A DNA stretch of 40,565 bases from Isosphaeraceae bacterium (GTDB lineage Bacteria > Planctomycetota > Planctomycetia > Isosphaerales > Isosphaeraceae): assembly GCA_025356475.1 (NCBI GenBank), contig JANXSX010000100.1, positions 1-40,565 on the forward strand. The letters are read 5' to 3'. This document shows, in pieces, positions 333-40,565 of the stretch; the first letter of the stretch is position 1, and each line of letters opens with the position of its first letter. The notes below the pieces were generated by a model, which saw only the letters and a program-made list of their open reading frames with translations, did not search any database and was not told the origin of the DNA. The position numbers and the translations under genes were made by a program.

Positions 333-654
333 CCTGGACGGTGAGGCGGTTTGAACGCCGGGTCGAGTTTTCGGGGTTGGTCGTCGCACTCCCTCTGCGC
401 CGAACGAACCTGAGTCGCCCTGCCCGGTCTTATTGAGAAGTTACGTGTATTGAGGCTTCTCGAGGCTCAGAGGAGCGTTTGGCGGGATGTGCGATTGAAA
501 ATTGATCAAAGAGTGCTTACGCGAGCGGCTTGAGCGAAAAAACGAGGTCGCGAACAATTGGTTTTGTCGCGGACGTCACTGTTGCGATAGTGGCAAGGAC
601 AGCTTTTTGTCCTCATGGCATAGCCACAAGGGGAGCGACTAGCATCGCTAAACT

Positions 655-698
655 CGCATTGTGGTCGCATTGCAGTCACGTTGCATTCGCATTGCACT
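655..698. repeat. Four tandem 11-bp repeats (iteron-like)
   Basis: Four consecutive 11-bp units start at 655, 666, 677 and 688. Three begin CGCATTG and the third is the variant CACGTTGCATT. The last unit is joined without a gap to the IS-end copy at 699. Short direct repeats upstream of a ParA-type gene can be partition-protein or replication-initiator sites, but no initiator gene is seen, so that role is inference only. They could equally be slippage products at an old insertion junction. Confidence 0.6.
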
Positions 699-728
699 CG
701 GGGCGACAGGACACGGTTAGAACTTTTC
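699..728 (+). repeat. IS4-type terminal sequence, solo copy 1
   Basis: This 30-bp segment contains GGGGCGACAGGACACGGTT followed by AGAACTTTT. It matches the left terminus of the IS4-type element at 5358 and the solo copy at 2865, in the same orientation. The match stops after about 30 bp, so only the extreme terminus is left. It is probably a footprint of a deleted or rearranged insertion. Confidence 0.75.
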
Positions 729-1039
729 AGTGCGTACATGAATGGCTGGGACGTCGCCGTGCTGGGTCGGCTAAAGGCAATTTGACTCCAAACGACACAA
801 CGCGTAGACAAAATGGCCACATCTGACAATTGTAAAAATAGAGTGTCCGAATCGTGAAGTTTAGGCTGACACACTACACCAAATGCATGACTGTGCTTGA
901 AATGGGGCACCTTCCACTCGCGGAGAGGCCGAACTCATGGCATGGGATGAGATGAGCGGGTATATTGATTGGGGCCTAGAATTCGGATAAACGACGCAAT
1001 CTGACGCAGATGCGAGCCAGATACTCGCGGAGGGAGACG

Positions 1040-2098
1040 ATGGCGACTCGCATCTCGCTTTTTAATCACAAGGGTGGCGTAAGCAAGACAACCACGACGT
1101 TCAACTTGGGATGGATGATCGCTTCCAAGGGGAAGCGAGTAGTACTTGTGGACTGTGACCCGCAGTGCAATCTAACGGGCATGGTCCTTGGCTTCAAGGG
1201 CGCGGCTGACCTCGAAACTCTATACAACACACCGGGCATACACAATATCCGAGACGCGCTGGCACCGGCCTTCGAATCCCGCCCTTCAATGATTGTTGCG
1301 GCGGACTGCCAACAGGTCACAGGCCAACCGAATATGGTCCTGCTCCCTGGGCATATCGGGCTAGCCGAGTATGAAGTGACTCTCGGTATCGCACAGGAGC
1401 TTTCCGGTTCGCTCCCTACCCTACAGAACCTACCCGGAGCGATCAGCTTCCTCCTTGATGAGGTCGCGAAGAAATACAACGCAGATTATCTGCTTATTGA
1501 CATGAGCCCGAGCCTCGGCCCAGTGAATCAGAATCTGCTCATGACGAGCGATTATTTCCTCGTGCCGATGACGCCTGATTATTTCTCCGTCATGGCGACC
1601 GACTCGCTTGCCTCGATCTTGCCAAAGTGGCATGCGTGGTCCTTGAAGGCCCAGCAACAATCCGTGTTGCAAAATGCGATCTACCCATACCCCAAAAAAT
1701 GCCCGAAGTTTCTCGGAACAATCGTTCAGAGGTATCGCTTGCGCGAAGGCCCGACGCCATCCAAAGCGTTTGAAGCCTGGATCGACGAGGTTGAATCGGG
1801 TGTGAGGAACAAGCTGATACCCGTCCTGCGAAAAAACGATATGCTGCTGCCCGACGACGTTTACACGAAAAACGGTATCATGCCTGGGAAGCCTCTCCTC
1901 CAAATGTCCGACTTCAACGGCCTGATCGCACTCTCGCAGAAGCATCAGGCACCAGTATTCGAACTAACAGACGAGCAACTCGAGCAGAGCGGTGTCGTCC
2001 TGGATCGAACGAAAAAGTCGATGGAAGAGTTCCGAAGGCTGTATTCCGAGGGTGCCGACAAAATCATCGTGATGACAACAAATGCAAACGGCACTTGA
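1040..2098 (+). CDS. ParA-like (MinD/ParA superfamily) ATPase paired with a HEPN protein
   Basis: This is a deviant-Walker ATPase of 352 residues. The P-loop is KGGVSKTTT at residues 11-19, where the usual ParA motif is KGGVGKTT. VDCDPQCNLTGM near 37-48 is the Walker A' region, and LLIDMSPSLG carries Walker B. It is longer than the chromosomal ParA at 37138, with extra sequence after the core. The ATG at 1040 is preferred because GGAGGGAG lies 5-6 bases upstream; an in-frame ATG at 1010 lacks this. The gene overlaps the downstream HEPN gene by 17 nt, so they are probably translated together. No ParB-like partner is adjacent, so ordinary plasmid partition is not well supported. A regulatory or sensor role for the HEPN protein is inferred from the pairing only. 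Confidence 0.85.
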   Translation: MATRISLFNHKGGVSKTTTTFNLGWMIASKGKRVVLVDCDPQCNLTGMVLGFKGAADLETLYNTPGIHNIRDALAPAFESRPSMIVAADCQQVTGQPNMVLLPGHIGLAEYEVTLGIAQELSGSLPTLQNLPGAISFLLDEVAKKYNADYLLIDMSPSLGPVNQNLLMTSDYFLVPMTPDYFSVMATDSLASILPKWHAWSLKAQQQSVLQNAIYPYPKKCPKFLGTIVQRYRLREGPTPSKAFEAWIDEVESGVRNKLIPVLRKNDMLLPDDVYTKNGIMPGKPLLQMSDFNGLIALSQKHQAPVFELTDEQLEQSGVVLDRTKKSMEEFRRLYSEGADKIIVMTTNANGT

Positions 2099-2684
2099 CC
2101 AGTTTCGCGCGAGCATCCAAAGGGTTCGCGATCTACACGCTTTATATAATTACTTCAGTACAGCGACGACACCGGCGCTGGACCTATCCGATTTGCTTCG
2201 TGCGCAGATCGTACTTTGTGTGAGTGCCTTGGACTTCTACATTCACGAATTGACCAGACTAGGAATGATCGAGATCATCGAGGGCAAGAGGGCGGCGACT
2301 CCCGCATTTCTGCGATTTAGAGCAAGCCTCGACGGGGTAATGACGGGAATGCAACCCGGTGCGACTAGCGCTTGGCTCGACGCCGAAGTGCGGACTCAGC
2401 ATAGTCTCCTTTCCTTCCAGCAGGCCGATAAGGTTGCGGACGCAATACGGCTGATCTCCACTGTCGAGTTGTGGAACGACGTGGGAGTCAGGCTCCAGAC
2501 GCCAGCCAATGATATAAAGAACAATCTACAACTCGTAGTGCAGCGGAGAAACAAGATCGCCCACGAAGCTGACATCGACCCGAGCTATCCGGGCCTCCGT
2601 TGGCCGATTACTTCTGCCGACGTCACATCCGCAACCGATTTCGTGGAGCGAATATGCGAAACGATTCACCAAGTAGTTGTGTAG
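2082..2684 (+). CDS. HEPN-domain protein, probable ribonuclease-type effector
   Basis: This 200-residue, mostly alpha-helical protein has QRRNKIAHEAD near 154-164, which contains R156-x4-H161, the RNA-cleaving signature of HEPN domains. The LRAQIVLCVSALDFYIHEL stretch (39-57) resembles the RiboL-PSP-type HEPN group. HEPN proteins with this motif are known as metal-independent RNases in toxin-antitoxin, abortive-infection and CRISPR systems. The start ATG at 2082 lies inside the end of the ParA-like gene, overlapping by 17 nt, so translational coupling is likely. Together they form a compact two-gene unit bounded by IS-end repeats. RNase activity and a defence role are inferred. Some HEPN proteins with this motif act as nucleotidyltransferase partners or only bind. 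Confidence 0.75.
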   Translation: MQTALDQFRASIQRVRDLHALYNYFSTATTPALDLSDLLRAQIVLCVSALDFYIHELTRLGMIEIIEGKRAATPAFLRFRASLDGVMTGMQPGATSAWLDAEVRTQHSLLSFQQADKVADAIRLISTVELWNDVGVRLQTPANDIKNNLQLVVQRRNKIAHEADIDPSYPGLRWPITSADVTSATDFVERICETIHQVVV

Positions 2685-3240
2685 CCAGGCGGCTCGATTC
2701 TCGGTTCCAGATACCCTTCTATCGCCCCAGAAATACTCGCTGATGAAACCGAGTCTATCAAGCCACTTGAGATACTGCGGGCCGTAATTCTTTGAAGGAG
2801 CTATGTGCGCCGCCGAATAAAACTCTACTCCACTCCAACGTCACCCCAATGCGAACGCAACACTCGGGGCGACAGGACACGGTTAGAACTTTTTCTGGAC
2901 GGGGTGCGGTTGTTCCGGAATTCAAGGTTTGCCCAGACTGTGTAGTCTACGTCCAAAATTAATGATGTCCCCGTTGGTGTCTCCGTTGGTGTCTTGCGAA
3001 CAAAAAAGTGGTCGGGCGCGTAATTTGATTCATGTTGCCCTTAAGCATCTTGTAGCGGCCGTCTCAGGGGAAAAGTGGCCGCAGGGCGTCCTGTTAGTTG
3101 TGTGTGGCGTCGCGCGGACGTGGGGAGCGGTGTCTGGCGGCTGGAAATCCGTGGGATATACTTGACCGGCACACCCATCATACCAGGGTCGCCCCCGCTT
3201 CAGTTGATCGTTGTGGACGGATGTTTAGATCGGCTGGCAG
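2685..3240. other. Intergenic region with an IS-end remnant, no convincing gene
   Basis: About 550 bases lie between the HEPN gene and the three-gene operon. The middle (2865-2972) is a copy of an IS4-type end. A short tandem phrase, GTTGGTGTCTCC then GTTGGTGTCTTG, follows at 2973. Short open frames around 2929-3400 are compositionally unremarkable and overlap the repeat or the next gene, so I do not call them. Confidence 0.5.
2865..2972 (+). repeat. IS4-type left-end remnant, solo copy 2
   Basis: This 108-bp segment begins CGGGGCGACAGGACACGGTT and aligns along its whole length with 5357-5463, the left end of the IS4-type element. Shared blocks include TGCGGTTGTTC, TTGCCCA, TGTGTAGTCT and a final GATGTCCC. 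In the intact copy these bases lie between the terminus and the transposase stop codon. Here the transposase is missing, so only the end is left. Confidence 0.75.
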
Positions 3241-3876
3241 ATGATGATTGCGAAATTCGAGACATGGGGCGTCGTCCTCGCGGGCCATTGGAACCGGATG
3301 ATTTTTACGCCGGAGTGGGTTGGTACGCGCCTGTTCGAGCAGGAAGAAGTCGAAACGCAGATCGCCCTGATGCCGATCTTCCCGATTATCTACCGGCATG
3401 AGCAGGTGGTGCTGGAAGCCGCGAGCCAACGGCTTATCTTCCGGCCGAGGTTCAATTCTACGAAGTCACTGGCAGCCGTCGAGCGCATGGCCGTGACGGT
3501 CCTGAAAGCCTTACCGAACACTCCCCTGCTTGGCGTCGGCGTCAATTTCAGCTTTACTGAGAAAGAGCCGCCGGACAAATTAGTCGAGCTGTTCAATCTG
3601 AAGGACGCCCGGGAGATAGCGCGGGCGAATTGGGAAACGCCGGAAACCAAGCTGATCCGCAAGCTAACCGGCGAACACGGCATCATGCAGTTCGCCCTCG
3701 GGCAGGATCTGGAAGGCGTCACAATCGACATCACTTTCCATACGGATACGCTCGGATCGACGGAGACCGCCAATGAGACGGCCAAGAACGCCGTTACCGG
3801 ACGCGTGGTGCAGCTCAGGGATGTTGCCCTCGCATTCTTACTAGATATCTATACTTTACAGCTCGAAGAGGGGTGA
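3241..3876 (+). CDS. Unrecognised protein, first gene of a three-gene operon
   Basis: I do not recognise this 211-residue protein. It has no signal peptide or clear membrane segment and looks like a soluble alpha/beta protein. The first half is rich in hydrophobic and aromatic residues (WGVVLAGHWNRMIF, MPIFPIIYRHEQ). The second half includes GVGVNFSFTEKEPPDK and a strand-rich segment, VTIDITFHTD. The stop at 3874-3876 is adjacent to the start of the next gene, which has a possible GTG at 3873 and a better ATG at 3879. This close packing indicates one transcript with the next two genes. The first ATG is used; a second codon is also Met. Confidence 0.65.
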   Translation: MMIAKFETWGVVLAGHWNRMIFTPEWVGTRLFEQEEVETQIALMPIFPIIYRHEQVVLEAASQRLIFRPRFNSTKSLAAVERMAVTVLKALPNTPLLGVGVNFSFTEKEPPDKLVELFNLKDAREIARANWETPETKLIRKLTGEHGIMQFALGQDLEGVTIDITFHTDTLGSTETANETAKNAVTGRVVQLRDVALAFLLDIYTLQLEEG

Positions 3877-3878
3877 AA

Positions 3879-4136
3879 ATGATGGGCGAAACCAATTTCC
3901 GGACTCCTATGGCCACCAGCATTACCACGCGCATAGCGGATGACCAGCTCAAGGACGTGGCTAGAGACGGCATCAAGCAGTACACTGAAACCGAATACGA
4001 ATACCCGGCCGAGCAATATTTCGTGCGTGTTCGCAAGAACCAGCAAACGATCGCCTTCACGCTGAATACGAGGCGGATGGTCGAGCGGCGGGAAATCGAA
4101 CGTTCGAACGAGATGAAGCGAGCCTCCGGAAAATAA
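3879..4136 (+). CDS. Unrecognised small charged protein, second gene of the operon
   Basis: This small soluble protein of 85 residues is rich in Arg, Glu and Thr. The ATG at 3879 is preferred over the GTG at 3873 because GAAGAGGG (3865-3872) ends six bases before it. The GTG would overlap the upstream stop as GTGA. The centre (QYFVRVRKNQQTIAFTLN) looks like paired beta strands and the C-terminus is a basic/acidic helix. Its size and place between two larger genes would suit an adaptor, immunity or antitoxin-like component, but the sequence shows no diagnostic motif. The next gene begins 28 nt downstream. Confidence 0.6.
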   Translation: MMGETNFRTPMATSITTRIADDQLKDVARDGIKQYTETEYEYPAEQYFVRVRKNQQTIAFTLNTRRMVERREIERSNEMKRASGK

Positions 4137-4164
4137 TCGCCACACAGTTGCGTCCGGTACTCGC

Positions 4165-5208
4165 ATGCCCACACACTACGTCTATGACGTGACGAAAAAC
4201 ACGGAGCTGTGCCAAGGGGACGTGCTCAAGCGCTCGCCTGCGCTCATAGGGTTGTTTGATGAATATTTCCCCTATTACAGCAAGCACCGTGATTACATCT
4301 ATTTCATGGTGCTCACCCAAACCTGCGACCTCGTAAGGCGCGACGGCGAGCCGTGCAACGCGTCTTACATCTCTCTCGCCGCCGTCCGGCCGATTAAAGA
4401 CGTCGTGCTGATGGAAGCGTGGAAGCATCAGCCAGCCAGCCTTCAAGGGACGAAGATCGTCGGCACGATCGTGCGCAACAAGCTGGCGATGTTCCTCGAA
4501 AGCTTGATGGACAATAATAAGGCCGGCTTATTTTACCTGCACACCGATCTGGACGTGGGCATCACCGAGCCCTGCTGCGCGTTCCTGCAGCTCTCCATCT
4601 CTTTTAGGTCGGTGCATTACGACAAGTGCCTAGACGCCAAAATCGCCCAACTGAAAGAGCCGTTTCAGGCGAAGCTCGGCTGGCTGATCGGAAACATGTA
4701 CAGCCGCGTTGCGACGACCGAATGGAACATCGAGCGGAAAGATGAAAAGGTTGCCAAGGTCGCAAGCAAAATGCTCGGCCAAACCATCGAGGCCATCGAT
4801 GACGACAGAATAAAGGTCGCCCTTAACGAACTGCAAGCGGACGGCACGTTGGGAACGATGACGCCGGAGCAGATCGCCGCTGCCGTTAAAAACAAAAAAA
4901 TCGATCCGAAACTCACACAGTTCAAAAAGCGTGCACAGGTGACGATGGCCGATATCAAGGTCTTCGAGCCGATTCGCGCTCTAGCCGTTTCGGCCCTGAA
5001 AAGCGATGCCGAGCTGAAAGCAGGCATCGTCTCGCTGATCGGCGGCGGACAATCGCCAGACGACGTGGTTGGCGAGGTGCTGCGTATGGTCACCGACAAA
5101 CTTCGCCTTACGCTCAGCGATGCGGCTTCGGCGGCGCGCGATGAATACATTGCCGGTCTGGTGACCGACCTCATGGCCGACGAAGTGCTGAAGAAATTTA
5201 TTAAGTAG
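4165..5208 (+). CDS. Unrecognised 347-residue protein with an LTQTCDL motif, third gene of the operon
   Basis: I cannot assign a named family. The N-terminal half contains CQGDVLKRSPAL near 17-28 and FMVLTQTCDLVRRDGEPCN near 48-66, a Cys-Asp motif in a beta-strand context that looks like a conserved core. The middle contains a possible second Cys pair (EPCCAFLQL). The C-terminal half is a long helical region rich in Lys, Ala and Asp with no membrane segment. It is the last gene of the tightly spaced operon, 28 nt after the second gene. The stop is followed by a 12-bp direct repeat, AAGGGGGATTAA at 5212 and 5231, and then the IS4-type element. A foreign or accessory origin is likely from context. 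Confidence 0.65.
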   Translation: MPTHYVYDVTKNTELCQGDVLKRSPALIGLFDEYFPYYSKHRDYIYFMVLTQTCDLVRRDGEPCNASYISLAAVRPIKDVVLMEAWKHQPASLQGTKIVGTIVRNKLAMFLESLMDNNKAGLFYLHTDLDVGITEPCCAFLQLSISFRSVHYDKCLDAKIAQLKEPFQAKLGWLIGNMYSRVATTEWNIERKDEKVAKVASKMLGQTIEAIDDDRIKVALNELQADGTLGTMTPEQIAAAVKNKKIDPKLTQFKKRAQVTMADIKVFEPIRALAVSALKSDAELKAGIVSLIGGGQSPDDVVGEVLRMVTDKLRLTLSDAASAARDEYIAGLVTDLMADEVLKKFIK

Positions 5209-5211
5209 GCG

Positions 5212-5242
5212 AAGGGGGATTAAAGGGCACAAGGGGGATTAA
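5212..5242. repeat. Pair of 12-bp direct repeats after the three-gene operon
   Basis: AAGGGGGATTAA occurs at 5212-5223 and again at 5231-5242, four bases after the stop of the preceding gene. The two copies have the same orientation and lie 19 bp apart. No function is evident. It may be a short slippage duplication. Confidence 0.55.
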
Positions 5243-5357
5243 TTGAGCCATCCAGAAAATCCGACGAAGATTGAGCAGGATGGAGAAGAACATTGCCGTC
5301 TCCTCAAGCGCAACGCTACACATGATCTCCACGAGACTCCGCTCTGAAGCAATATTC

Positions 5358-6875
5358 GGGGCGACAGGACACGGTTAGAACTTTTTGTGGCTGGTGTGCG
5401 GTTGTTCCTGGATACAAAAATTGCCCATCTTGTGTAGTCTGCGTTCAATATTCAAGATGTCCCGAATGGCATGAACTTAGGCCACCAAGTCTTTTTCTAG
5501 CAAGCGTTTACGGAGCGCCGGCCTCGGCGTTTTCATCAGCGGGAACTTCTTCATCCGACGCTTAATCACGCGAGGCTCGATGCGGTCGGGGCGGCTGGGA
5601 TTCACCAGTATGTCTCGCAAGTCCCCGCCCGCAATCGGGCTCGCTAACCATCGAAACGCATCAAGAAATCCGATCCGATCCACCGGCACGTTTTGAACTG
5701 TCGCCGACTCATACATCACCGACCTGATAAGATTATATGCCAACGCATACATCGTCAGCTCCTTCATCACTCCATCGACCGTCTTGCAATGCAAAACATC
5801 CATTTTCATTGTAATCTTCATGTGCCGGATGTTAAGCTCAATCTCCCAACGCCTTCGATAGAGTGTGGCCAATTCCATTTTGGGGTAGATCAAAGGATCG
5901 AGCAATGTCGTTACCAATGTGATGACACGTACGCGAAATCCAGCCGTCTTCACCTGATATCGCAACTCGCGAACCGTGATCTCCGCGGGTAATTTCGCGT
6001 ACTCCTCTTGGGTCATCCACTTCGGCTTTTGCTTCGGCTTGTACCAGATCACAACGTGGTCAAGTTGACCGTTGGACCGCACCCAAAGCGAGTGTGGCAG
6101 ACCCTTGGGATTGGCGGCATAACTCAGCTTCGTCGGCATGGGCCGGCCGGGCGTGAAATCGACGATCTGCTTCTGATGCATGCGAAAAAACCCGTGATTT
6201 CCGCGTGTCTGCAACATTGACAAATGAGCATACGAACAAAATCCTCGATCACCAAGGACAATGTCACCAGGCTCCAATTCACGCGCGAGATGAGCCGTTT
6301 TAGACATGTCGTAAGTTCGCAGCGGGCTGGTTGTAACGCGCAAAAGCATGCCGGTTGTTAGATCGAACAACATGACCAGATGAGCCACCGGAAATCCGCA
6401 ACCGGGGCGCTGTCCCGAGGGCTGTCCGAAATGGTTTTGGAGTTCGGGAACGTCGGGCATAGACACGCCGGTTCCATCGATCATCCACACGCGATGACCG
6501 AGCCATTGGGCACTCTCCGCGGTCGTCGCGCGAAGCTTGGCGGCGACCATTTCGACCAAGGATTGCAAGACGCGAAGGGGCAATCTTTTGCGTGCTTTCA
6601 GTAGGCCGTGGCGCTGAACGCCCACTGTCCAAACTGGACGACCTGTTGGCAAGCGGTGTTGGCGTGCAGGATTTGGAGCAAGAAAAGCGTGACCGTAGCG
6701 ACGGGATCGAGCTTGCGATTTCGCCACGAATAACCGGCCCTCCGACAGGCTTCGCGGATGGATTCTGGTGTGAGGATTTCACTAATGTCTTGGCGCAGTC
6801 GCGCAAGGACAGGCATGATGTGAAGGTGCATGGGAGGGCTCCGTCCCGTTCCTGGTGAGGTCGTGTCCTGACCCC
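5358..6875 (-). mobile_element. IS4-type insertion sequence, about 1.5 kb
   Basis: The left end reads GGGGCGACAGGACACG (5358) and the right end CGTGTCCTGACCCC (to 6875). The right end read on the other strand is GGGGTCAGGACACG, so the two are imperfect terminal inverted repeats sharing CAGGACACG. The 1.52-kb span fits IS4-family elements and encloses one transposase on the minus strand. I see no convincing target-site duplication, so the exact ends may be off by a few bases or one flank has been rearranged. Its left end is repeated as solo copies at 699 and 2865. Confidence 0.75.
5477..6831 (-). pseudogene. IS4-family DDE transposase, frameshifted
   Basis: The gene starts at ATG 6831 with a GGAG ribosome-binding site. 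Its first 77 codons (ending GQWAFSATAY) stop at TGA 6598-6600. The protein continues in a different frame from KARKRLPLRVLQSL to the stop at 5477. Comparing the join with the expected reading suggests one lost base plus a substitution near 6598. The second part has the catalytic pattern: MIDGTGVSMPD, LGDRGFCSY and YRRRWEIELNIRHMK. Long open frames on either side of a single break imply recent inactivation. Programmed frameshifting or a sequencing error are alternatives, but IS4 elements do not normally use frameshifting. Confidence 0.8.
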
Positions 6876-7409
6876 CAGGATGCGCGACGCCCCTCTCACG
6901 CTCAAGAGGCTACAAGTTGTTCATTCATAAAAGGATGTGGCGAGACAAAGCGGGCGCCCTCGGCTAAAGTTCATGCCATTCCAAGATGTCCCCGTTTTCC
7001 GTTCCGCATTCGGCACGTTCTTGGATCACCCTCGTGATTTATGAGGCGAACGCGACAAGTCACATTCTAAAGTTCGGGACACGGGAAGTGCAGTTCGAGT
7101 CGGAGGGAAGCGGAGGGATTCTGGGTAAGTCAGCCATCCTTAGGCACAGGTGCGGGTTTCGAGGAACCTCGAAACAGGCCCAAGATAGGTTTAAAACTAG
7201 CGACGAGATTTGAACCGCGTAACCGACTGCTCCGATTCGATTTAGGAGAATCGGAAGACTATCCTGTCAGAAATTCGGGAGTTGTTTGGACTTCAGATGC
7301 ACTGACAAACAAGTCGCATTTGAGCTTTTCAAGAGTCAAGTCGGTTACGGATGGATTCAGCAACTCTTTGGCATGCTGGCCGAAGGAAATCTAAGTCGCC
7401 AAGTTCCTA
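6876..7409. other. Intergenic region carrying a long direct repeat
   Basis: No convincing gene lies between the IS4-type element and the kinase. Most of the stretch (7016-7343) is the first copy of a direct repeat whose second copy begins at 11275. CAAGATGTCCCC at 6981-6992 resembles the inner end of the IS4-type left-end sequence (5453-5463), which suggests further old insertion scars. Confidence 0.5.
7016..7343. repeat. Long direct repeat, copy A, downstream of the kinase gene
   Basis: This 328-bp segment aligns with 11275-11602 in the same orientation. The first 205 bp are highly similar by eye, from CGTTCTTGGATCACCCTCGT to GAGATTTGAACCGCGTAAC. The middle has diverged and the last 55 bp match again (ACTGACAAACAAG). 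A perfect hairpin, GTTTCGAGG-AA-CCTCGAAAC, sits at 7156-7175. Broken reading frames indicate it is non-coding. Confidence 0.85.
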
Positions 7410-10400
7410 TCACTTGTTTAGCCAAGCCCGCCAGCGCTTTGCCTCGCCCTCGTTTCCCGACTGCTCGGTGCGGTGAAGCAGTGCTTGTGCGAGCGGCCTT
7501 TTTTTGTCTTCCGGAGCAGCCTCAAACTCCGCACGCAGCCAGTGAAGTTTGTCGGTCGCGAGGTAGCCAGGAAATGGAAACTCGGGATGCGGCGGCGTAA
7601 ACGCGGCGAGTTCCCGCTGCTTCTTTTGCCAGGTCTCTTCGTTCCAGGGGATGAACCGACCGGCCGGGCCGAGTTCGCCACGTACGGCGACTTGAATCCA
7701 GAGTTGCAACAGTTCAGGTGAGATTTTCAAGAAACGGGGCGCGGGAAAGATGGCCGATTTGTATTCTGCGCCCGACCCGAAATGAAAGAAGGCCCCGAAG
7801 CCAACGAGGGCGCCTTCAGAACTAAGCATGTATGATTGTTCTTGAGGGATGGACTTTTCCGTCACTGAATCGATCAACTCGTAGCTACCAATCTTCACAA
7901 ACCTGCCGTCTTGGGCCAACCTCGCGAGTACGGGGGGAAATTTGTGGCCGGGTGGCGCAATGAGTCGCAGCTTGGTCTTGATGTCGTAGATAGCGTCGAA
8001 TCGATCCCACAAGAAGCCATCCTTGGTGATGACGTCTAGAACGTCGAGGTTCCATAACGGGTTCGATGCATCAAAATCGTATAGCGCCGCACTATTCCCA
8101 GCATCCGTGGTGATTAGAGCCTGATCGTCTGTGAGGAATTGGCGAAAAGCACCCGGCTGAAGTTCAGAAATTCGAGGCAGTAGACGCCAAGGATTCGATT
8201 CCCAAACGTAGAGGGCATCGCCATTCTCCGTTCTCTTAGCACTCACAACGACCCGCTTGCCGTTTGGCGAGACGTCGAAACTAAGAAACTCGCCGCCCGT
8301 GTGGTGGACTAGCCGAGTGATCTCTCGCCCATCGTTCGCCGAGTAGATGACGACTTTCGATTTCCCTTCTTGGCCGACGACCCATTTTGATTCATTCGCA
8401 AAGCGGAACCCGGTTGCGTTACCGCTCTCAGGTCGGTCGAGACGAGTGATTAACTTGCCGGTTTGTGTGTCCCATAGTTCGACTCGGACAGCGAATTCCT
8501 GACCGATTATCTTGGTGTCGCCTGTTTCTGGTCTTCGCTTTGCCTTGACGCGTTCGGTGATCAATCTGTTATTGCCGAGCGCGAAATCTTCGTTTTGGAA
8601 GAGGGCACGGATATACGGTTCTTTTTTCATTGTTCGTACATGTTCAACCTTGATTTCCTTGTTGTCAGAGGTGTCGTAAAATGAATGGCTCCCATCGATC
8701 CTGGAGAGCAATTTCGCGGTCTCGGTGCTCCAGCATCGGATCATCCCGGTTACATCCCTCGTGAGAATGGTTTTCGAGTCCGGGCTGAATAGGCGACCGT
8801 CCAAGCGCGTAGGATCGCCTAAATCCTCGTCGTCTTCGTAAAGTTTGCCTTTGAGTGTGGCCTTTCGAGAATCCCAGAGCTGAAGCCTCTTTTCCTCAGG
8901 CCCCCACGTCAGAAACGTCGAACCGTCCGGACTGTAGACATAACTAAGTTGGTCGTCTTCTTGGGTAAGAGGTGGACGGAGCCGAGCGTATTTCAACTGC
9001 CCAACCGTGATCACGGCTGCCGCGACAAATTCTTGAAGCGGTTGGAAACGATCACCAATGCTGAAAGGCATGGCTTTACGATCATCGTCGTTTTGGAATG
9101 GGAAGGGATCGAACTCGGTTTTCCTGGGACGGGCCAGACGCAGCAGGCCCACGCGGGTGTCGTTTTTTAGTTGTTCGAGATCCAGATCGATCTGATAGTC
9201 GATCGCCCTGAACTCAGCATCGAGCCGACTTCTCTGGCCTTCTGTCGAAGCCTCGAGATAGAGTCGCGCGTTTTTCTCGGCCTCTGTACGTGCTCTCGTG
9301 GCCTTGATGGCGAGTGTACCACTGATGCCCACCGCGGCGATCAACATTCCCACAAAAGCAGACACCGTGGCAATCACCACGCGGTGACGCTTGACGAACT
9401 TGCTCAGCCGATAGCTCGCCGACGGAGGGTGAGCCTGAATCGCCTCGCCGTCGAGGTACCGACGGATATCGGCTGCGAAGCCGTTGGCGGTTTCGTAGCG
9501 ACGCGACCGATCTTTTTCCAGCGCCTTCATGACGATCCAGTCAATCTCGCCACGCATGAGCGCCGAGAGTTTCATCGGATCGATCTGACGCATCGCCGCG
9601 ATGCTCGCTTTGCCTTCGGAAGTGCTGAAACGTACGCTTGGTCGGGGCGGCTCTTCATCCCGAACAATCCGCAACACTTCATCCAACGCCGCTCGTTTCA
9701 GACGCTCAGGTTCGACCGGAGGGCTGCCCGCGAGCAGTTCATAAAGCAGCACGCCTAGTGCGTAAACATCGGCACGCGTGTCAATGTCAAGCTGGTTAAA
9801 TGTCGCCTGTTCGGGAGCCATGTAAGCCGGTGTGCCGACGAGATTACCGAAGCCTGTGTAAATCGTTTTCTCCGTAAGTTGCTGGCCGACAGCCTTGGCG
9901 ACTCCGAAGTCGATCACCTTGGGTACTGGCGTTTCGTCGTGAAGGGCGACCAGCACGTTCGAAGGCTTGATATCCCGGTGAATGATGCCCTTCTGATGCG
10001 CGTGCTGGATCGCCTGGCAGACGGGAATGAACAACGCGAGGCGCTGTTTCGCAGTCAAGCGTCGAGCGTCGCAGAACTCGGTGATGGGCGTTCCCTTGAC
10101 CAATTCCATCACGAAATAGGGCTGCCCGGTTTCGGTCGTACCACCGTCGAGCACCTTGGCGATATTCGGGTGATCCATCACGCCCAGCGCCTGGCGTTCA
10201 GCCTCGAAACGCGCGAGAACGCTGCGTGAATCCATGCCGCGTTTGATCAGTTTCAAGGCGACGCGACGCTTGATAGGTTCAAGTTGATCAGCGACCCAAA
10301 CTTCGCCCATTCCGCCTTCGCCGATTTTTTCCAACAGCTTGTATTTTCCGGCGATGACCGCGCCCGCGTGGTCAGGTGAGGGTTTGAGGCGAGCCTCTTT

Positions 10401-10592
10401 TGCTTCGCCGGAGAACGATCCAGTGGCCATGAAGTCGCCCACCTTGGGGTGCGCTTCAAGCATGAGTTCCACGCGTCGTCGCAACTCGACGTTCTCACCG
10501 CAAGCTGCTTCGAGATAGGCGGCACGTTGTTCAGGGCCAATCTTCTCCAAGGCAGCGAAGAAAATGACTTCGGCCGGGGATCGCTCGGTCAT
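7410..10592 (-). CDS. Membrane Ser/Thr protein kinase with C-terminal WD40-like region
   Basis: This is a 1060-residue Hanks-type kinase. The glycine loop is IGEGGMGEVW (90-99), the ATP-binding Lys is K114, HRDIKPSN (205-212) is the catalytic loop, DFG is at 228-230 and YMAPEQ follows at 257-262. A single transmembrane helix (about 405-429) precedes a short coiled region. The last 500 residues show repeated strand-rich units such as SPDGSTFLTWGPEEKRLQLWDS and SPDSKTILTRD, typical of WD40-like propellers. The start has a GGAG site upstream. It lies 76 bp downstream of an ECF sigma factor on the same strand, a common planctomycete pairing in which the kinase probably controls or responds with the sigma factor. 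The pair is bracketed by direct repeats. Confidence 0.9.
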   Translation of the reverse strand: MTERSPAEVIFFAALEKIGPEQRAAYLEAACGENVELRRRVELMLEAHPKVGDFMATGSFSGEAKEARLKPSPDHAGAVIAGKYKLLEKIGEGGMGEVWVADQLEPIKRRVALKLIKRGMDSRSVLARFEAERQALGVMDHPNIAKVLDGGTTETGQPYFVMELVKGTPITEFCDARRLTAKQRLALFIPVCQAIQHAHQKGIIHRDIKPSNVLVALHDETPVPKVIDFGVAKAVGQQLTEKTIYTGFGNLVGTPAYMAPEQATFNQLDIDTRADVYALGVLLYELLAGSPPVEPERLKRAALDEVLRIVRDEEPPRPSVRFSTSEGKASIAAMRQIDPMKLSALMRGEIDWIVMKALEKDRSRRYETANGFAADIRRYLDGEAIQAHPPSASYRLSKFVKRHRVVIATVSAFVGMLIAAVGISGTLAIKATRARTEAEKNARLYLEASTEGQRSRLDAEFRAIDYQIDLDLEQLKNDTRVGLLRLARPRKTEFDPFPFQNDDDRKAMPFSIGDRFQPLQEFVAAAVITVGQLKYARLRPPLTQEDDQLSYVYSPDGSTFLTWGPEEKRLQLWDSRKATLKGKLYEDDEDLGDPTRLDGRLFSPDSKTILTRDVTGMIRCWSTETAKLLSRIDGSHSFYDTSDNKEIKVEHVRTMKKEPYIRALFQNEDFALGNNRLITERVKAKRRPETGDTKIIGQEFAVRVELWDTQTGKLITRLDRPESGNATGFRFANESKWVVGQEGKSKVVIYSANDGREITRLVHHTGGEFLSFDVSPNGKRVVVSAKRTENGDALYVWESNPWRLLPRISELQPGAFRQFLTDDQALITTDAGNSAALYDFDASNPLWNLDVLDVITKDGFLWDRFDAIYDIKTKLRLIAPPGHKFPPVLARLAQDGRFVKIGSYELIDSVTEKSIPQEQSYMLSSEGALVGFGAFFHFGSGAEYKSAIFPAPRFLKISPELLQLWIQVAVRGELGPAGRFIPWNEETWQKKQRELAAFTPPHPEFPFPGYLATDKLHWLRAEFEAAPEDKKRPLAQALLHRTEQSGNEGEAKRWRAWLNK

Positions 10593-10668
10593 GGGGATGG
10601 CTCCGTCGAACGGGTTGTCGTCACACTCAGTGCGAGAAAACTGGCCAACCCCTTCACGAAATCGGAAA

Positions 10669-11235
10669 TTATTCCGAAAAATGCTCCTTTTGCATCTCTG
10701 TCAACAACCAAGTCCTCGCGAAAACCCACCACCGTTCCGCCGTTGAAAGCGAGATCCCCAGAGCGTCAGCAGCCTCGGGCATCGATAACCCCGCGAAGAA
10801 TCGCAACTTCACCAGCTCGACCTTGCGAGGTTCTTCGGCGGCGAAGCGGGTCAGTGCCTGATCGAGCACGAGGAGATCGTCGGGTGATTGGGTCAAGGCG
10901 TGAATATCCAGGAGCGTAACACGAACTCTGCCGCCACCATGCCGGACGGCCTGCTTCCGACGCGCCGCATCGACGAGAATTCGACGCATCGCTTCAGCGG
11001 CTGCGGCAAAGAAATGCCCCCGATGCTCCCAACGCTTGTCGATGCCGTCGCCGACCAGCCGTAAGTAGGCTTCGTGGACAAGTGCTGTGGCTTCGAGAGT
11101 CTGTCCGGGGGTTTCATGGGCTAGCTTTTGAGCCGCCAGCTTCCGAAGTTCGGAATAGACAAGGGTCAGAAGTTGCTCGGTTGCGAGCGGTTCCCCCGCC
11201 TCAACCGCAGCCAGGATTTGGGAAAAATCATCCAT
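10669..11235 (-). CDS. ECF RNA polymerase sigma factor, planctomycete kinase-linked type
   Basis: This 188-residue ECF sigma factor directs RNA polymerase to specific promoters. Region 2 includes LVYSELRKLAAQKL and TALVHEAYLRLVG, and region 4 includes LVKLRFFAGLSMPEAADALGISLSTAERWW, a helix-turn-helix. The overall pattern matches the TIGR02999-like group common in planctomycetes, recalled from family knowledge. There is no adjacent anti-sigma factor. Instead a Ser/Thr kinase gene follows 76 bp downstream in the same direction, so phosphorylation-linked control is likely. The ribosome-binding site is weak. The second copy of the long direct repeat begins about 40 bp upstream of the start and may contain the promoter. 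Confidence 0.92.
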   Translation of the reverse strand: MDDFSQILAAVEAGEPLATEQLLTLVYSELRKLAAQKLAHETPGQTLEATALVHEAYLRLVGDGIDKRWEHRGHFFAAAAEAMRRILVDAARRKQAVRHGGGRVRVTLLDIHALTQSPDDLLVLDQALTRFAAEEPRKVELVKLRFFAGLSMPEAADALGISLSTAERWWVFARTWLLTEMQKEHFSE

Positions 11236-11274
11236 TCTGATCGCTTCGATTTACATATTGACTCTCATCCGACG

Positions 11275-11602
11275 CGTTCTTGGATCACCCTCGTGATTCA
11301 ATGAGGCGAACACGACAGGTGACATTCTATAGTGCGGGACACGGAACAGCAGTTCGAGCCGGAGGGAAGTGGCGGGATTCTGGTTAACTCAGCCATCCGA
11401 AGGTACAGGTGTGGGTTTCGAGAAACCTCGAAACAGGCCCAAGTCAGTTTAAAAATTGGCGACGAGATTTGAACCGCGTAACTGTTTATTCAAATTTAAG
11501 TTAGGGAAAGCAGGACATTATTCCCAAAGGGGTTCTTGAGAAGTTTGAACTTGAGATGGACTGACAAACAAGACTTTTTTGAGCTTTCCAAAAATCAATT
11601 CG
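11275..11602. repeat. Long direct repeat, copy B, upstream of the sigma factor
   Basis: This is the second copy of the repeat at 7016-7343, in the same orientation and of about the same length. The hairpin is kept here as GTTTCGAG and CTCGAAAC (11415-11434). Reading frames are broken compared with copy A, so the repeat is not coding. Its start is only 40 bp from the sigma factor start codon. Confidence 0.85.
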
Positions 11603-11933
11603 GGGCGATGGGATTTGAACTGGTCCGAAGCGTGTGACACTGATGCGCATGCCTGGATGCCACTGGGTCGTACTCGGCCAGTGTCTTGATTTTGTTCGGC
11701 GGCCGAGTGAGAGCTGAGTAGAGAATTCTCAGGTCAATCTCTGGACGAGAAGTTCAACTCGTGGCAATCACCGGACTCGCGAAATGACTTGACGGTCGTT
11801 CAGCCACCGCTCATAGTTGAGACAGTCACGTGAAAATCGCCGATGAGCAAGGACCGTCGAGGGCCCCTCAAAGGCACTGGCCGGGCACGCCAAATGACAT
11901 CTCGACATGATCATCAGTGCCACCCGCCGAAAG
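11603..11933. other. Intergenic region, no gene seen
   Basis: About 330 bases follow the direct repeat and I find no plausible gene. The first bases (with the end of the repeat) read CGGGGCGATGGGATTTGAAC. Its reverse complement looks like the 3' end of a tRNA (GTTCAAATCCC then CGCCCCG), but no paired T-arm or anticodon stem follows, so it is not a complete tRNA. A half parS-like string, GTCACGTGAAA, is at 11825-11835. Confidence 0.45.
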
Positions 11934-12383
11934 TCAAATCTTCAGTTGGATGATAAAGTATTTAAGCTTTATTGGCTTATGCTTGTAGTCGATCAGCAGA
12001 TAACCATCGGGCGAGCGATTGACATTAAGCCGATCTAAGTCCCTATACAGAATAATTTGCGATCCGTTGCCATTTGTAAAGTGCAAGGTAAATATAGGTG
12101 GCATACATTCGCCAAACTGGCAGCCAAAGACTACTCTGCATTCTCCACCAAACTCCGGCGACGATTCAACGATATGATAAGTTGTCAGAGATCCGTTAAA
12201 TGTATTTGCTATATCGACATTATTCATCGGATAATGTGCAGAAGGCTGTTTGTGTTTATCTCTTACTATTAGGGATGTTGCGGTGGTGGATTTAGAAACA
12301 AAAACATAGGCGCAGTCAGAGAAGCGGCCTTGCCAACGGGTCGCTTGTAGGTATTGCAGTAGCGCCGCTACTACCACAGACAA
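11934..12383 (-). CDS. Hypothetical membrane-anchored or exported protein, AT-rich
   Basis: No family is recognised. The called start is a TTG. Upstream in frame, codons back to about 12413 encode IKLKFIVLLLL, so with the called N-terminus (SVVVAALLQYL) the protein would begin with a positively charged, hydrophobic segment typical of a signal anchor. No ATG occurs before the upstream stop, so the real start may be a rare codon or the gene may have lost its start. The body is strand-rich with Cys residues (GGECRVVFGCQFGEC), suggesting an extracytoplasmic disulfide-bonded domain. The base composition is clearly more AT-rich than its neighbours, which suggests horizontal transfer. Confidence 0.45.
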   Translation of the reverse strand: MSVVVAALLQYLQATRWQGRFSDCAYVFVSKSTTATSLIVRDKHKQPSAHYPMNNVDIANTFNGSLTTYHIVESSPEFGGECRVVFGCQFGECMPPIFTLHFTNGNGSQIILYRDLDRLNVNRSPDGYLLIDYKHKPIKLKYFIIQLKI

Positions 12384-12569
12384 CAGAAGTAGAACAATGA
12401 ATTTTAATTTTATCGTGTCATCATCACATTTTCATATTTTCTAATTATGTCACTTGTAATGCTATCCCATTGGAAAACGAGGCGCTCGCCATTATACATG
12501 CCATCACCGAGATAACAGAAATATCTACCGAATTCGTGCTATATCTCACCTGGCTCACCTTATCGCCCC

Positions 12570-12686
12570 CGCGCCAATCTTGAGGCTAAGGACGACAAAG
12601 GTCGCACCTCACTGATGCTAGCGAAGGAACAGGGAAGCGCTGAAGTGGTCGCTCTCCTGACCAAGCTTCAGACGAAAACGCCCTGA
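12570..12686 (+). pseudogene. Ankyrin-repeat gene remnant (3' end)
   Basis: In the frame of AAT at 12576, the bases encode NLEAKDDKGRTSLMLAKEQG, then a segment ending EVVALLTKLQ and a TGA at 12684-12686. This is a single ankyrin repeat: the DDKGRTSLMLAKEQG segment matches the usual D-x-G-x-T-x-L-x-x-A pattern. No start codon or upstream repeats are visible, so it is the tail of a degraded or truncated gene. It sits at the boundary of the AT-rich patch and the core gene run. Confidence 0.6.
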
Positions 12687-12730: not shown

Positions 12731-13723
12731 TCACTCCGAGGCGGGCAATTGTTGGAGGAGTTCATTGGCGCGGGTTCGCACACCCGATTGCCCCCCCTTG
12801 CTCAGGGCTTCGATCTCGGGGCGGAGCAGCTTTGCTAACGTGGCGTGACCGACCCGTATCGAAGTCTGGAGCGATTCCAGCCCTTCCAGCTCGATCTCTT
12901 CGATCTTGTTGTCGGTCTCGGTCTTGGTCTCAAACTTGATGACCTGGGCCATCGCCTGAGGGGAAAGAATCTCTCGGAAGACGGAGACCGCCATTGGGTC
13001 TCCCTGTCGTCCTAAAGCGATCGCAGCGTTGTACCGGACGTACCGATCTTCATCGTTCAAGCGTCCCCGGAGTGTGGCACTCGCCGCTTCGCCACCGAGG
13101 AAACCGAGGGCGTAAGCAGAGATCTGCCGGACCTCGGGCTCAGAGGCCTGGCACGATTCGGCGAGCGCCTTGACGGCAACCTCGGACTCCAGCTTGCCGT
13201 CGAGTCGAGCTCCATGTTTGGCCAGACTCGCAGCCGCAGCGATCCGGATCGGCGAAGCATGCTTGGCGTCGAGCGCCGATGCCAGGGTTGCCAACGTATC
13301 GACGGGCTTGCCACCGACCGGCTTGGCATCAAGGGTCTTGAACCCGCCCAGGGTCAGGGCTAGGAACTGGTCAAACTTGGGGTTGGCCTCGGTCCGAAGC
13401 TCCTGGTCGAGTAGCGCGGTCAGTTCGCCGAGCAACTCGCCGTCTTGGGCCAAATTCGAATCGTTCTGGATCAGGTTTGCCAGCTCGTAAGCGGCTCGCC
13501 AGTCAGCGCTATCCCCTTTAAGCTTCTCGACATACGACCGAGCGTCGCGTTCGCCCCCCGCGAGCTTACCGAACAACAGCCAGACGACAACCACAACGCC
13601 CACGATCAGGGCGGGGATGACGAAAAGCTGAATGATAAACCCAGCAGTGGGGGCTTCCACCGGTGGGAGCTCTGGGGGCAGCGAGGCATTCTGGGCGGTC
13701 TCAGACATCGTCGGTGTGCTCAT
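12731..13723 (-). CDS. HEAT-repeat membrane protein
   Basis: This 330-residue protein has a proline-rich N-terminus and one strong transmembrane helix near 29-50 (FIIQLFVIPALIVGVVVVVW). A helical body follows with HEAT-like units such as VRQISAYALGFLGGEAASATLRGRL and VRYNAAIALGRQGDPMAVSVF. HEAT repeats form curved protein-binding scaffolds. No catalytic motif is seen. Two in-frame starts exist, at 13723 and 13708. The gene is 69 bp downstream of an APC transporter on the same strand. Its partners cannot be told from the sequence. Confidence 0.8.
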   Translation of the reverse strand: MSTPTMSETAQNASLPPELPPVEAPTAGFIIQLFVIPALIVGVVVVVWLLFGKLAGGERDARSYVEKLKGDSADWRAAYELANLIQNDSNLAQDGELLGELTALLDQELRTEANPKFDQFLALTLGGFKTLDAKPVGGKPVDTLATLASALDAKHASPIRIAAAASLAKHGARLDGKLESEVAVKALAESCQASEPEVRQISAYALGFLGGEAASATLRGRLNDEDRYVRYNAAIALGRQGDPMAVSVFREILSPQAMAQVIKFETKTETDNKIEEIELEGLESLQTSIRVGHATLAKLLRPEIEALSKGGQSGVRTRANELLQQLPASE

Positions 13724-28835: not shown

Positions 28836-29017
28836 ACTCGTTCCCACGGTCCCCGGTGGGAATGCCGTCCGGGACGCTCCTGCGTCCCCGGTTGAGTCCT
28901 GAAAGCACTCGTCCGCCGGGCCAGTGTTGCACTACGATCTCACTCGCGGTATGGGATCGGAAACGACGCAGGAGCGTCGCAGACTGCATCCCCACGGAGG
29001 ACCGTGGGAACGAGTCT
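28836..29017. repeat. Long imperfect inverted repeat with GGGAATGC-type arms
   Basis: The left arm (28836-28886) and right arm (28965-29017) are imperfect inverse copies. Both contain CTCGTTCCCACGGTCC, a GTGGGRATGC block and GACGCTCCTGCGTC. The 78-bp centre is unrelated. Arms with this GTTCCCACG...GGGAATGC pattern are known as dispersed repeats in several phyla (recalled, not searched). It fills the gap between csrA and the alcohol dehydrogenase gene and could fold into a large hairpin between convergent transcripts. Confidence 0.75.
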
Positions 29018-40117: not shown

Positions 40118-40426
40118 ATGGGATGGTCGAAAAACTCACACGCGGCCTTTACTGGCGGTAGCGGCCAGATGGCCGTTATGGGCGAACTCTTACATCCCAA
40201 GTGTAACGCAGCGATCCCCTTGATCGATGTTGGCACGGATGTGTTCGCGTACCAAGACGGTCGCGAAGAAGTCGCTCGTATCCAGGTCAAGACTGGAGCC
40301 GGGACCTGGTACAACAATCGGCAGGGATTCAGTGCGAGGTTCGGCATTCCGCTGAGCGAGTTGGCGCGCAGGGACACTCCGCCAATTTTCTCTAGAACTC
40401 GGCAGTTGGTGCGCGCATTTGGGTAA
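40118..40426 (+). CDS. PD-(D/E)XK nuclease-like protein, apparently truncated
   Basis: The first 90 residues look like a small restriction-endonuclease-fold protein. E23 lies in GQMAVMGELL, D41 in DVGTDVF, and the core strand has RIQVKT with Q56 and K58, matching the E-D-QxK variant of PD-(D/E)XK. GFSARFGIPLSEL is a conserved follow-on. Related proteins usually continue well past this point. Here the sequence changes at about 40401, where a 15-bp inverted-repeat segment begins, and the frame ends at 40426 with unrelated residues. The start could also be a later Met. A nuclease or DNA-repair-like role is inferred. Confidence 0.55.
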   Translation: MGWSKNSHAAFTGGSGQMAVMGELLHPKCNAAIPLIDVGTDVFAYQDGREEVARIQVKTGAGTWYNNRQGFSARFGIPLSELARRDTPPIFSRTRQLVRAFG

Positions 40427-40530
40427 AGATCGCTGTCTGGAAAGGCAATCTACGGCCTGAACTGGTAGCTCGGGGTGTCCTGGAGGCCTTGAGCAACTCC
40501 GGACGAATCCGGATTCGCGCACCAACTGCC
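40401..40530. repeat. 130-bp segment with 15-bp terminal inverted repeats (MITE-like)
   Basis: GGCAGTTGGTGCGCG (40401-40415) is the exact inverse of CGCGCACCAACTGCC (40516-40530). A perfect 14-bp palindrome, CGAATCCGGATTCG, overlaps the right arm (40504-40517). CTAG occurs five bases before the left arm and overlaps the last base of the right arm, so a target duplication is possible but not symmetric. The segment sits at the point where the nuclease-like gene loses its expected sequence. Confidence 0.65.
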
Positions 40531-40565
40531 TAGCGCTAACAAGTTTTGCGGAGTTTTACACCAGA

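Follow-up and report, generated by a model that had tools for sequence, protein, structure and literature searches.

The window analysed here is the 40,565-nucleotide contig JANXSX010000100.1 of an Isosphaeraceae bacterium (Planctomycetota; assembly GCA_025356475.1, here G000, 5.92 Mb in 232 contigs; C-numbers without a genome label denote its contigs). It carries two long direct repeats, copies A and B, which enclose a gene for an extracytoplasmic function (ECF) sigma factor and a gene for a Ser/Thr protein kinase. Along the same part of the window lie short cores that resemble the 3′ end of tRNA-Pro, each followed by a coded tail similar to the end of a large serine recombinase (LSR), and we read positions 698-11620 as a head-to-tail array of cassettes ending at 11620.

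Direct repeats around the sigma factor/kinase pair

By BLASTN the two copies align in the same orientation over 339 bp (7007-7344 and 11266-11603) with 79.6% identity (E 3.8e-79), and a gapless repeat finder returned 261 nt at 78%. A reading of this stretch made earlier from the letters alone (the sequence-only reading) had described two such repeats, the enclosed sigma factor and kinase, and a hairpin in each copy. All three held: PF07638 and Pkinase matches lie between the copies, and both keep the perfect hairpin GTTTCGAG-4 nt-CTCGAAAC, read by eye. That reading had passed over an insertion sequence next to copy A, the tRNA-Pro 3′ end that adjoins copy B and the core family at 698, 2864 and 5356, all described below. 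Identity per 40 columns ranges from 0.53 to 0.88 and peaks around the hairpin. A protein-coding role of A and B was rejected, as stops occur in all six frames of both copies, and tblastn of seven LSRs of the RKPFD subfamily described below gave no match in the window. An Rfam search of 6800-12600 returned two sub-threshold matches, probably due to chance.

Across the whole assembly, A/B sequence was matched at these two places alone. Among 58 relatives a single 25-bp match (CGCGGTTCAAATCTCGTCGCCA) was obtained, in G012, a member of another genus; it resembles a tRNA's T-arm end and is found there 179 bp beyond the equivalent point of a tRNA-Pro(CGG) gene. We also compared A and B with ECF loci, taking up to 1.5 kb of flank on each side of 14 other PF07638 loci of this genome and of 29 loci of relatives (those fetched, of about 150 matches listed). 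BLASTN gave nothing beyond chance (best E 0.7), so that the repeat, expected by the sequence-only reading at other sigma/kinase pairs, was seen at 0/14 and 0/29 of these loci. A regulatory role of B for the sigma factor, proposed there as a shared regulatory region, is possible, as 40 bp separate B from the start of the sigma gene downstream of it; we found no promoter or terminator consensus and no sigma-70-like promoter in B, although such consensus may not suit planctomycete promoters.

Cores resembling tRNA-Pro 3′ ends

The window holds a 30-bp core, TCGGGGCGACAGGACACGGTTAGAACTTTT, at 698, 2864 and 5356; on the complementary strand it reads as a modified tRNA-Pro 3′ end. Profile searches of the window gave only these three sites above threshold. 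The core DNA pattern was searched within 3 mismatches in this genome, with the reversed pattern as a control, and in 392 genomes of the phylum. It was present at 17 places in this genome, against 0 for the reversed pattern, and in 14/392 genomes of the phylum, in some of them with the end of another tRNA. IMG/VR viral contigs gave no core. Eleven contigs of this genome bear cores, including weaker ones on C103 and C137. All six contigs with more than one core (C37, C50, C143, C191, C201, C212) show a uniform orientation, with cores spaced about 1.3 to 4.6 kb apart.

The exact tRNA-Pro 3′ end, GTTCAAATCCCATCGCCCCGA, adjoins the outer side of copy B. No tRNA gene was called at 11600-11620, nor in the window slice by relaxed ARAGORN (80%). 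A search of the genome for this 3′ end within 2 mismatches gave 13 sites and none for the reversed control; overlaps between contigs (C35/C37 and C3/C227) reduce these to 11 distinct ends, two of which belong to tRNA-Pro genes (anticodons GGG and CGG). Such an end is present on 7 of the 11 core contigs (C37, C50, C103, C131, C137, C147, C201), and in all seven it has the expected orientation and lies farther out than the cores. On C137 it is part of the intact tRNA-Pro(CGG) gene, and on C201 it has 2 mismatches.

One locus could be compared between two assemblies. A 3,376-bp contig (L104), binned as a Rhodanobacteraceae metagenome-assembled genome (MAG) and possibly mis-binned, matches C103 of this genome with 98.6% identity over its bases 1-142, a stretch that ends 6 bp beyond the tRNA-like core. 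Past these shared 142 bp, C103 continues with HipA and L104 with a peroxidase (KatG-like) and a Fur-family gene, then another core. In this one case, the same locus seems to have received different cassettes at its core.

The coded tail and large serine recombinases

The frame through the core reads RGDRT(P/R)LELF or near variants at 46 of 47 listed sites; at the remaining one (L138) it stops at once. Over the core codons of 45 distinct copies from outside this genome, codon position 2 is the least variable (0.14 vs 0.82 bits at position 3), and over the next 8 codons only slightly less variable (1.47 vs 1.72). Many copies share xAGxxGW downstream of the core, the copies at 2864 and 5356 being without it. 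A profile built from 24 tails was run on 297 sampled Planctomycetia genomes (at least 95% complete, 144 genera). At E ≤0.05, where about 15 of the matching genomes could be chance, it matched 110 genomes in 70 genera, with 22 matches in this genome, and at 1e-4 it matched 85 genomes. No tail was found in PLSDB plasmids, a weak result obtained with one short query. The tail can serve as a simple tag for finding such cassettes.

In four relatives (G272, G489, G600, G539) an LSR is fused or adjacent to tails. In G272 the tail forms the C-terminus of an open frame in which the Recombinase domain passes its cut-off, Resolvase and zinc ribbon scoring below theirs. The LSR frame of G489 ends at a stop inside the tail, and a fragment of an LSR in G600 ends at the core. 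We read the C-termini at 30 fetched loci with the LSR domain PF07508, taken from a longer match list, and found RKPFD near the C-terminus at six. Five of these run into convergent tRNA 3′ ends, namely Pro(TGG), Pro(GGG), Ala(GGC), Ser(TGA) and Ser(GCT), and the sixth (L215, in G600) runs into a core. ARAGORN, applied to all 30 loci, called tRNA genes at exactly those five. Of the five frames, that at Ser(GCT) passes through its tRNA and the other four end at the tRNA or within it; all five proteins are LSRs by Pfam. The other 24 loci, which end elsewhere, are probably of other subfamilies. In this genome, an LSR-end peptide of the RKPFD type (RKPFDVLAKGLLLKNS) remains behind tRNA-Pro(CGG) and none was found behind tRNA-Pro(GGG); a weaker one is present in G012.

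Two loci of relatives show larger arrangements. In G539 (L226) the order is tRNA-Ser(TGA), LSR, a lectin-domain protein, a DUF5131 protein, and a tail with its core. This far-end core opens with the same 8 bases as the tRNA-Ser end, GCGGAGAG, and the tail and core are preceded by an LSR-end remnant, which we read as a second unit. On C36 of G272, an LSR follows tRNA-Pro(TGG). The 39 kb fetched from that tRNA onward held no tail; two tails lie farther out, at about 42 and 50 kb, and the more distant one is fused with another LSR. We read this arrangement as a tandem insertion with tail sharing. As a separate observation, C1 and C2 of G066 carry 13 LSR genes with equal profile score and frame length (752 aa), as if this LSR multiplied like an insertion sequence (IS).

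Tyrosine recombinases were considered as movers and rejected. None of the six PF00589 matches of this genome is on a contig with cores or tRNA-Pro ends, the stretches fetched around all six hold no core, and the tails belong to LSRs.

Proposed units of the window and their cargo

The features of the array are collected in Table 1. Of the two proteins of unit 2, that at 3241-3876 has no Pfam match and that at 4165-5208 just a sub-cut-off match to DUF445. Unit X runs from the core at 5356 through a tail end, an IS and copy A, the core-to-A stretch being interrupted by the IS; its 115-bp tail end is common to 2857-2971. The IS has inverted ends GAATGGCATGAACTT and an 11-bp flanking repeat CAAGATGTCCC at 5453-5463 and 6982-6992. 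Unit Y comprises, in this order, the kinase, the sigma factor, copy B and then the 11600-11620 site.

Table 1. Features of the proposed cassette array and its outer flank, in window coordinates
Feature	Position	Strand	Remarks
R1 core, start of unit 1	698..727	+	core apparently derived from a tRNA-Pro 3′ end; LSR-like tail RGDRTRLELFSAYMNGWDVAVLGRLKAI and stop, to 782
Unit 1 cargo	1010..2684	+	ParA-type AAA_31 ATPase 1010-2098; HEPN RiboL-PSP protein 2082-2684
R1 core, start of unit 2	2864..2893	+	tail RGDRTRLELFLDGVRLFRNSRFAQTV and stop
Unit 2 cargo	3241..5208	+	two proteins of unknown family, 3241-3876 and 4165-5208
R1 core, start of unit X	5356..5385	+	core and tail; unit without cargo
IS inside unit X	about 5464..6981	-	DDE_Tnp_1 transposase 5477-6727; ends read by eye
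Direct repeat copy A	7016..7343	.	putative recombinase-side end of unit X; hairpin 7156-7175
T2 in copy A	7198..7219	-	second tRNA T-arm-like motif, CGCGGTTCAAATCTCGTCGCTA
Ser/Thr protein kinase	7410..10592	-	Pkinase; cargo of unit Y; C-terminal part with weak beta-propeller matches
ECF sigma factor	10669..11235	-	PF07638; cargo of unit Y
Direct repeat copy B	11275..11602	.	putative recombinase-side end of unit Y; hairpin 11415-11434
T2 in copy B	11457..11478	-	146 bp from core
Exact tRNA-Pro 3′ end	11600..11620	-	GTTCAAATCCCATCGCCCCGA; core ending the array
Outer flank of array	11621..11930	.	parts in five places on C131

We scanned 16 cargo proteins of this genome, picked by eye from lists of open reading frames, against Pfam and 10 against PADLOC, besides the sigma/kinase pair and two window proteins. 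The cargo is varied: an N6-methylase protein with similarity to type IIG restriction-modification systems (C37), HipA (C103), PIN (C137), SocA/Panacea (C147), Hypoth_Ymh (C143), Fic (C212), a 1,043-bit match to the PADLOC model 'Helicase' (C131), and ABC-3C CTD10 proteins, one with PDC-M68B (C201). Three of the 16 proteins had no Pfam match and one was a transposase. Many units are only 1.3-2.5 kb long. The sigma/kinase pair thus appears as one passenger among the defence, toxin and regulator genes of a cassette family. The sequence-only reading had tied the repeat to sigma/kinase pairs and had named, as the finding that would speak against this, a repeat spread widely with no association with such pairs. 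That is the situation here, because the wider family of core and LSR tail is widespread and flanks unrelated cargo. That the pair moved as a unit, as also proposed there, is probable: it sits among mobile units with its flanks at recombination-type cores. Recombination between A and B as the mover was not supported.

A gene resembling the kinase was seen near a core in one other assembly. On L100, from an Isosphaeraceae MAG, the cut end of a gene shows 72% identity across 145 residues to the kinase of the window and precedes an exact core by about 250 bp, keeping the same relative orientation; the contig begins inside this gene, so that a sigma factor would be out of view. We did not count it as support, as it is one case and possibly chance (such genes are common) and Pfam sees only TPR repeats in it, next to one sub-cut-off match.

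Further repeats were noted around the array and elsewhere in the window. One of the C131 places that hold parts of the outer flank adjoins C131's own tRNA-Pro 3′ end. The interspersed repeat at 11635-11930 corresponds to 2998-3104, 11313-11486, 11721-11831, 12835-12937 and 17727-17900 of L117 (C131), with weaker matches on C191 and C103. A 133-bp repeat, 97-98% identical, lies near the ends of three contigs of this genome (window 445-578, L073 198-330, L081 3871-4004) and probably belongs to a mobile element at which the assembly breaks. A 51-bp inverted repeat with a 78-bp spacer at 28836-29015, possibly a small non-autonomous element, has surroundings 93-95% identical to C84 (L077 9626-9782).

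Proposed arrangement and the points that weigh against it

We consider it likely that the locus is an array of LSR-type cassettes at sites resembling tRNA 3′ ends, and that A and B are the ends of units X and Y. Each small integrative cassette would be bounded by a core derived from the tRNA-Pro 3′ end, and the enzyme of the family would be an LSR with a gene that extends into the attachment core. Where a tRNA gene is occupied, the LSR frame would enter the antisense of the tRNA 3′ end and usually stop there; beside another cassette, it would read through the core into the tail of the neighbour. The cores, the tails and their orientation, the LSR frames that run into cores or tRNA ends, the lack of an LSR match in this genome, the varied cargo, and the L104 contig, on which a shared flank meets another cassette at the core, are seen directly. 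We infer that A and B are the unit ends, that an LSR catalysed the insertions and that the units moved in trans. The cassettes of this genome, where PF07508 gave 0 matches, would then be non-autonomous or relic forms.

Copies A and B would be the homologous recombinase-side ends of the neighbouring units X and Y, to judge from their sequence and placement; X carries an IS and no cargo and Y the sigma/kinase pair, and the pair would seem bracketed by A and B because X is nearly empty. T2-like motifs (at least 14/19 matches) were found on the recombinase side of 8/58 cores (4/17 in this genome, 4/41 in others) and on the tail side of 0/56, with a background rate of 0.45% of random stretches. They stand about 110-200 bp from some cores on the recombinase side. 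T2 may be an accessory site or a relic of an older core.

Several results weigh against this arrangement. At A, a core was not recognisable, 3,358 of 16,214 windows scoring at least as high as its best site; no tail was found between A and the kinase by DNA or protein profile; and no third A/B copy exists anywhere, so that no other unit shows A/B as an element end. In these searches, four of the 11 core contigs (C51, C143, C191, C212) show no tRNA-Pro end, C191 having just a T2-like one, and C27 and C84 have tRNA-Pro ends and no core. Six arrays (C37, C50, C103, C131, C147, C201) end at tRNA-Pro ends with no called tRNA gene, and strict insertion at tRNA genes leaves these six unexplained. Relaxed ARAGORN on seven tRNA-Pro-end slices gave two degenerate calls, on C103 (64 nt, tRNA-Ser) and C27 (type undetermined), and some of the ends may therefore be decayed tRNA genes. 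No congeneric genome is available to show an empty site. For the tail, the DNA pattern used to pick the sites covers the LELF codons, which makes their codon bias weak proof. PF07508 does not follow the tails either: it was matched in 24/30 tail-bearing vs 15/20 tail-free genomes, and not in the tail-bearing G010, G029, G448, G054 and G621. It fails to track them because it covers many LSRs.

Other explanations of the repeats

A and B could also be the leaders of two ancestral sigma/kinase operons that arose by tandem duplication, the second operon having been lost, with no element end involved. B directly upstream of the sigma factor and A after the kinase, in the same orientation, fit an order [leader-sigma-kinase][leader-...], and the uneven A/B identity is as in a regulatory region. 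We nevertheless regard such a duplication as unlikely: B adjoins an exact tRNA-Pro 3′ end, a core with its tail, both of the element family, precedes A, T2 of both copies also occurs past tRNA-Pro(CGG) in G012, the contig has a single PF07638 match, and none of the ECF loci compared above has an A/B-like leader. The direct orientation of the copies and their 4.26-kb spacing around exactly the sigma/kinase pair had suggested a device specific for this pair, in which homologous recombination between A and B excises or copies it. This is much less probable still, in view of the lack of a further copy in the genome or at the ECF loci examined and of an identity of 80%, which would be poor for homologous recombination.

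Arrays of small cargo units together with a tyrosine recombinase gene on C152, which we read as IntI-like from its motifs, bring to mind chromosomal integron cassettes, with the cores as attC-like sites used by IntI. The gene in question stands at the end of contig C152 (L110). A 152-bp sequence at 40387-40538, with complementary ends GGCAGTTGGTGCGCG...CGCGCACCAACTGCC, is 92% identical to one on C201 (L079 3584-3735) and resembles an integron attC site. This attC-like repeat of the genome is a different sequence from the cores, which match tRNA 3′ ends, vary with the tRNA and end LSR frames. With no core in the fetched stretch of C152 and no IntI next to the arrays either, we give the integron the lowest probability of all, marginally below that of the pair-specific device.

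A wider model, LSR-type cassettes again being taken as the basis, can be put forward only tentatively and is rather doubtful: planctomycetes might maintain an integron-like cassette economy run by tRNA-targeting LSRs, in which every cassette closes with a tRNA-mimic core and a coded tail, and each insertion swaps the C-terminus of a neighbouring recombinase. Tail exchange could switch the LSR between two forms, one for insertion, which has a tail, and one for residence, which ends within the tRNA; cassettes that lack a recombinase and carry defence, toxin or sigma/kinase genes could in this way build up in arrays. Apart from this wider model, the cassettes described above offer a concrete path along which defence systems, toxin-antitoxin genes and sigma/kinase pairs could spread between planctomycetes. 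They also suggest that several tRNA genes are natural targets of LSRs, and lead to the testable idea of control through exchange of a recombinase C-terminus.

Comparison with known systems

Composite and recombinase-less forms of SCC are known. In SCCmec/ECC, as presented in PMC6222049, islands whose cargo varies are inserted by LSRs where a conserved gene has its 3′ end, and the attachment sites are direct repeats; tandem ECCs with several ccrAB were not directly observed in that paper. In both systems LSRs would place cassettes where a conserved gene ends, here a tRNA gene. Insertion at a 3′ end with the core repeated at the far end is seen in relatives (the five tRNA ends; L226). An LSR within the element was not found in G000, and the window array would be no more than a relative that lacks the recombinase. 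The cassettes described here target tRNA 3′ ends and not rlmH, and there is one LSR per element and not a CcrA/CcrB pair. The planctomycete cassettes differ also in that the LSR frame crosses the core and its tail is supplied by the neighbouring unit, and in that so many units are as short as given above.

In SSV-type (partitioning) integrases of archaeal viruses, the attachment site lies inside the integrase gene and tRNA insertion separates the parts of the integrase. There a tyrosine recombinase is cut in two, whereas here the last ~20-30 codons would be exchanged. Integron arrays consist of small accessory cassettes placed head to tail, often with toxin-antitoxin and defence genes; in contrast, the sites described here would be tRNA-derived and not attC, and no IntI stands beside the arrays.

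PMC12884075 names tRNA genes as common targets of islands and treats both enzyme families, so that tRNA-targeting serine integrases as such may be known; in PMC8092301 and PMC10654092, the tRNA sites of mycobacterial prophages are credited to tyrosine integrases. In open-licence papers, a weak basis for a negative, we found no account of LSR cassettes inserted at tRNA genes of planctomycetes. For Methylophilaceae, PMC10872708 describes an additive flexible genomic island, recognisable by repeated copies of the final 20 bp of tRNA-Lys, and a tycheposon that starts at a tRNA gene and has the tyrosine recombinase xerD. Repeats of a tRNA 3′ end, beside or between cassettes, are also seen here; the tycheposon differs by its xerD, against the link to an LSR here, with no LSR found in the genome that holds the array. 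By analogy, the working principle proposed here would resemble that of SCC/ECC combined with the tRNA-end repeats of the Methylophilaceae island.

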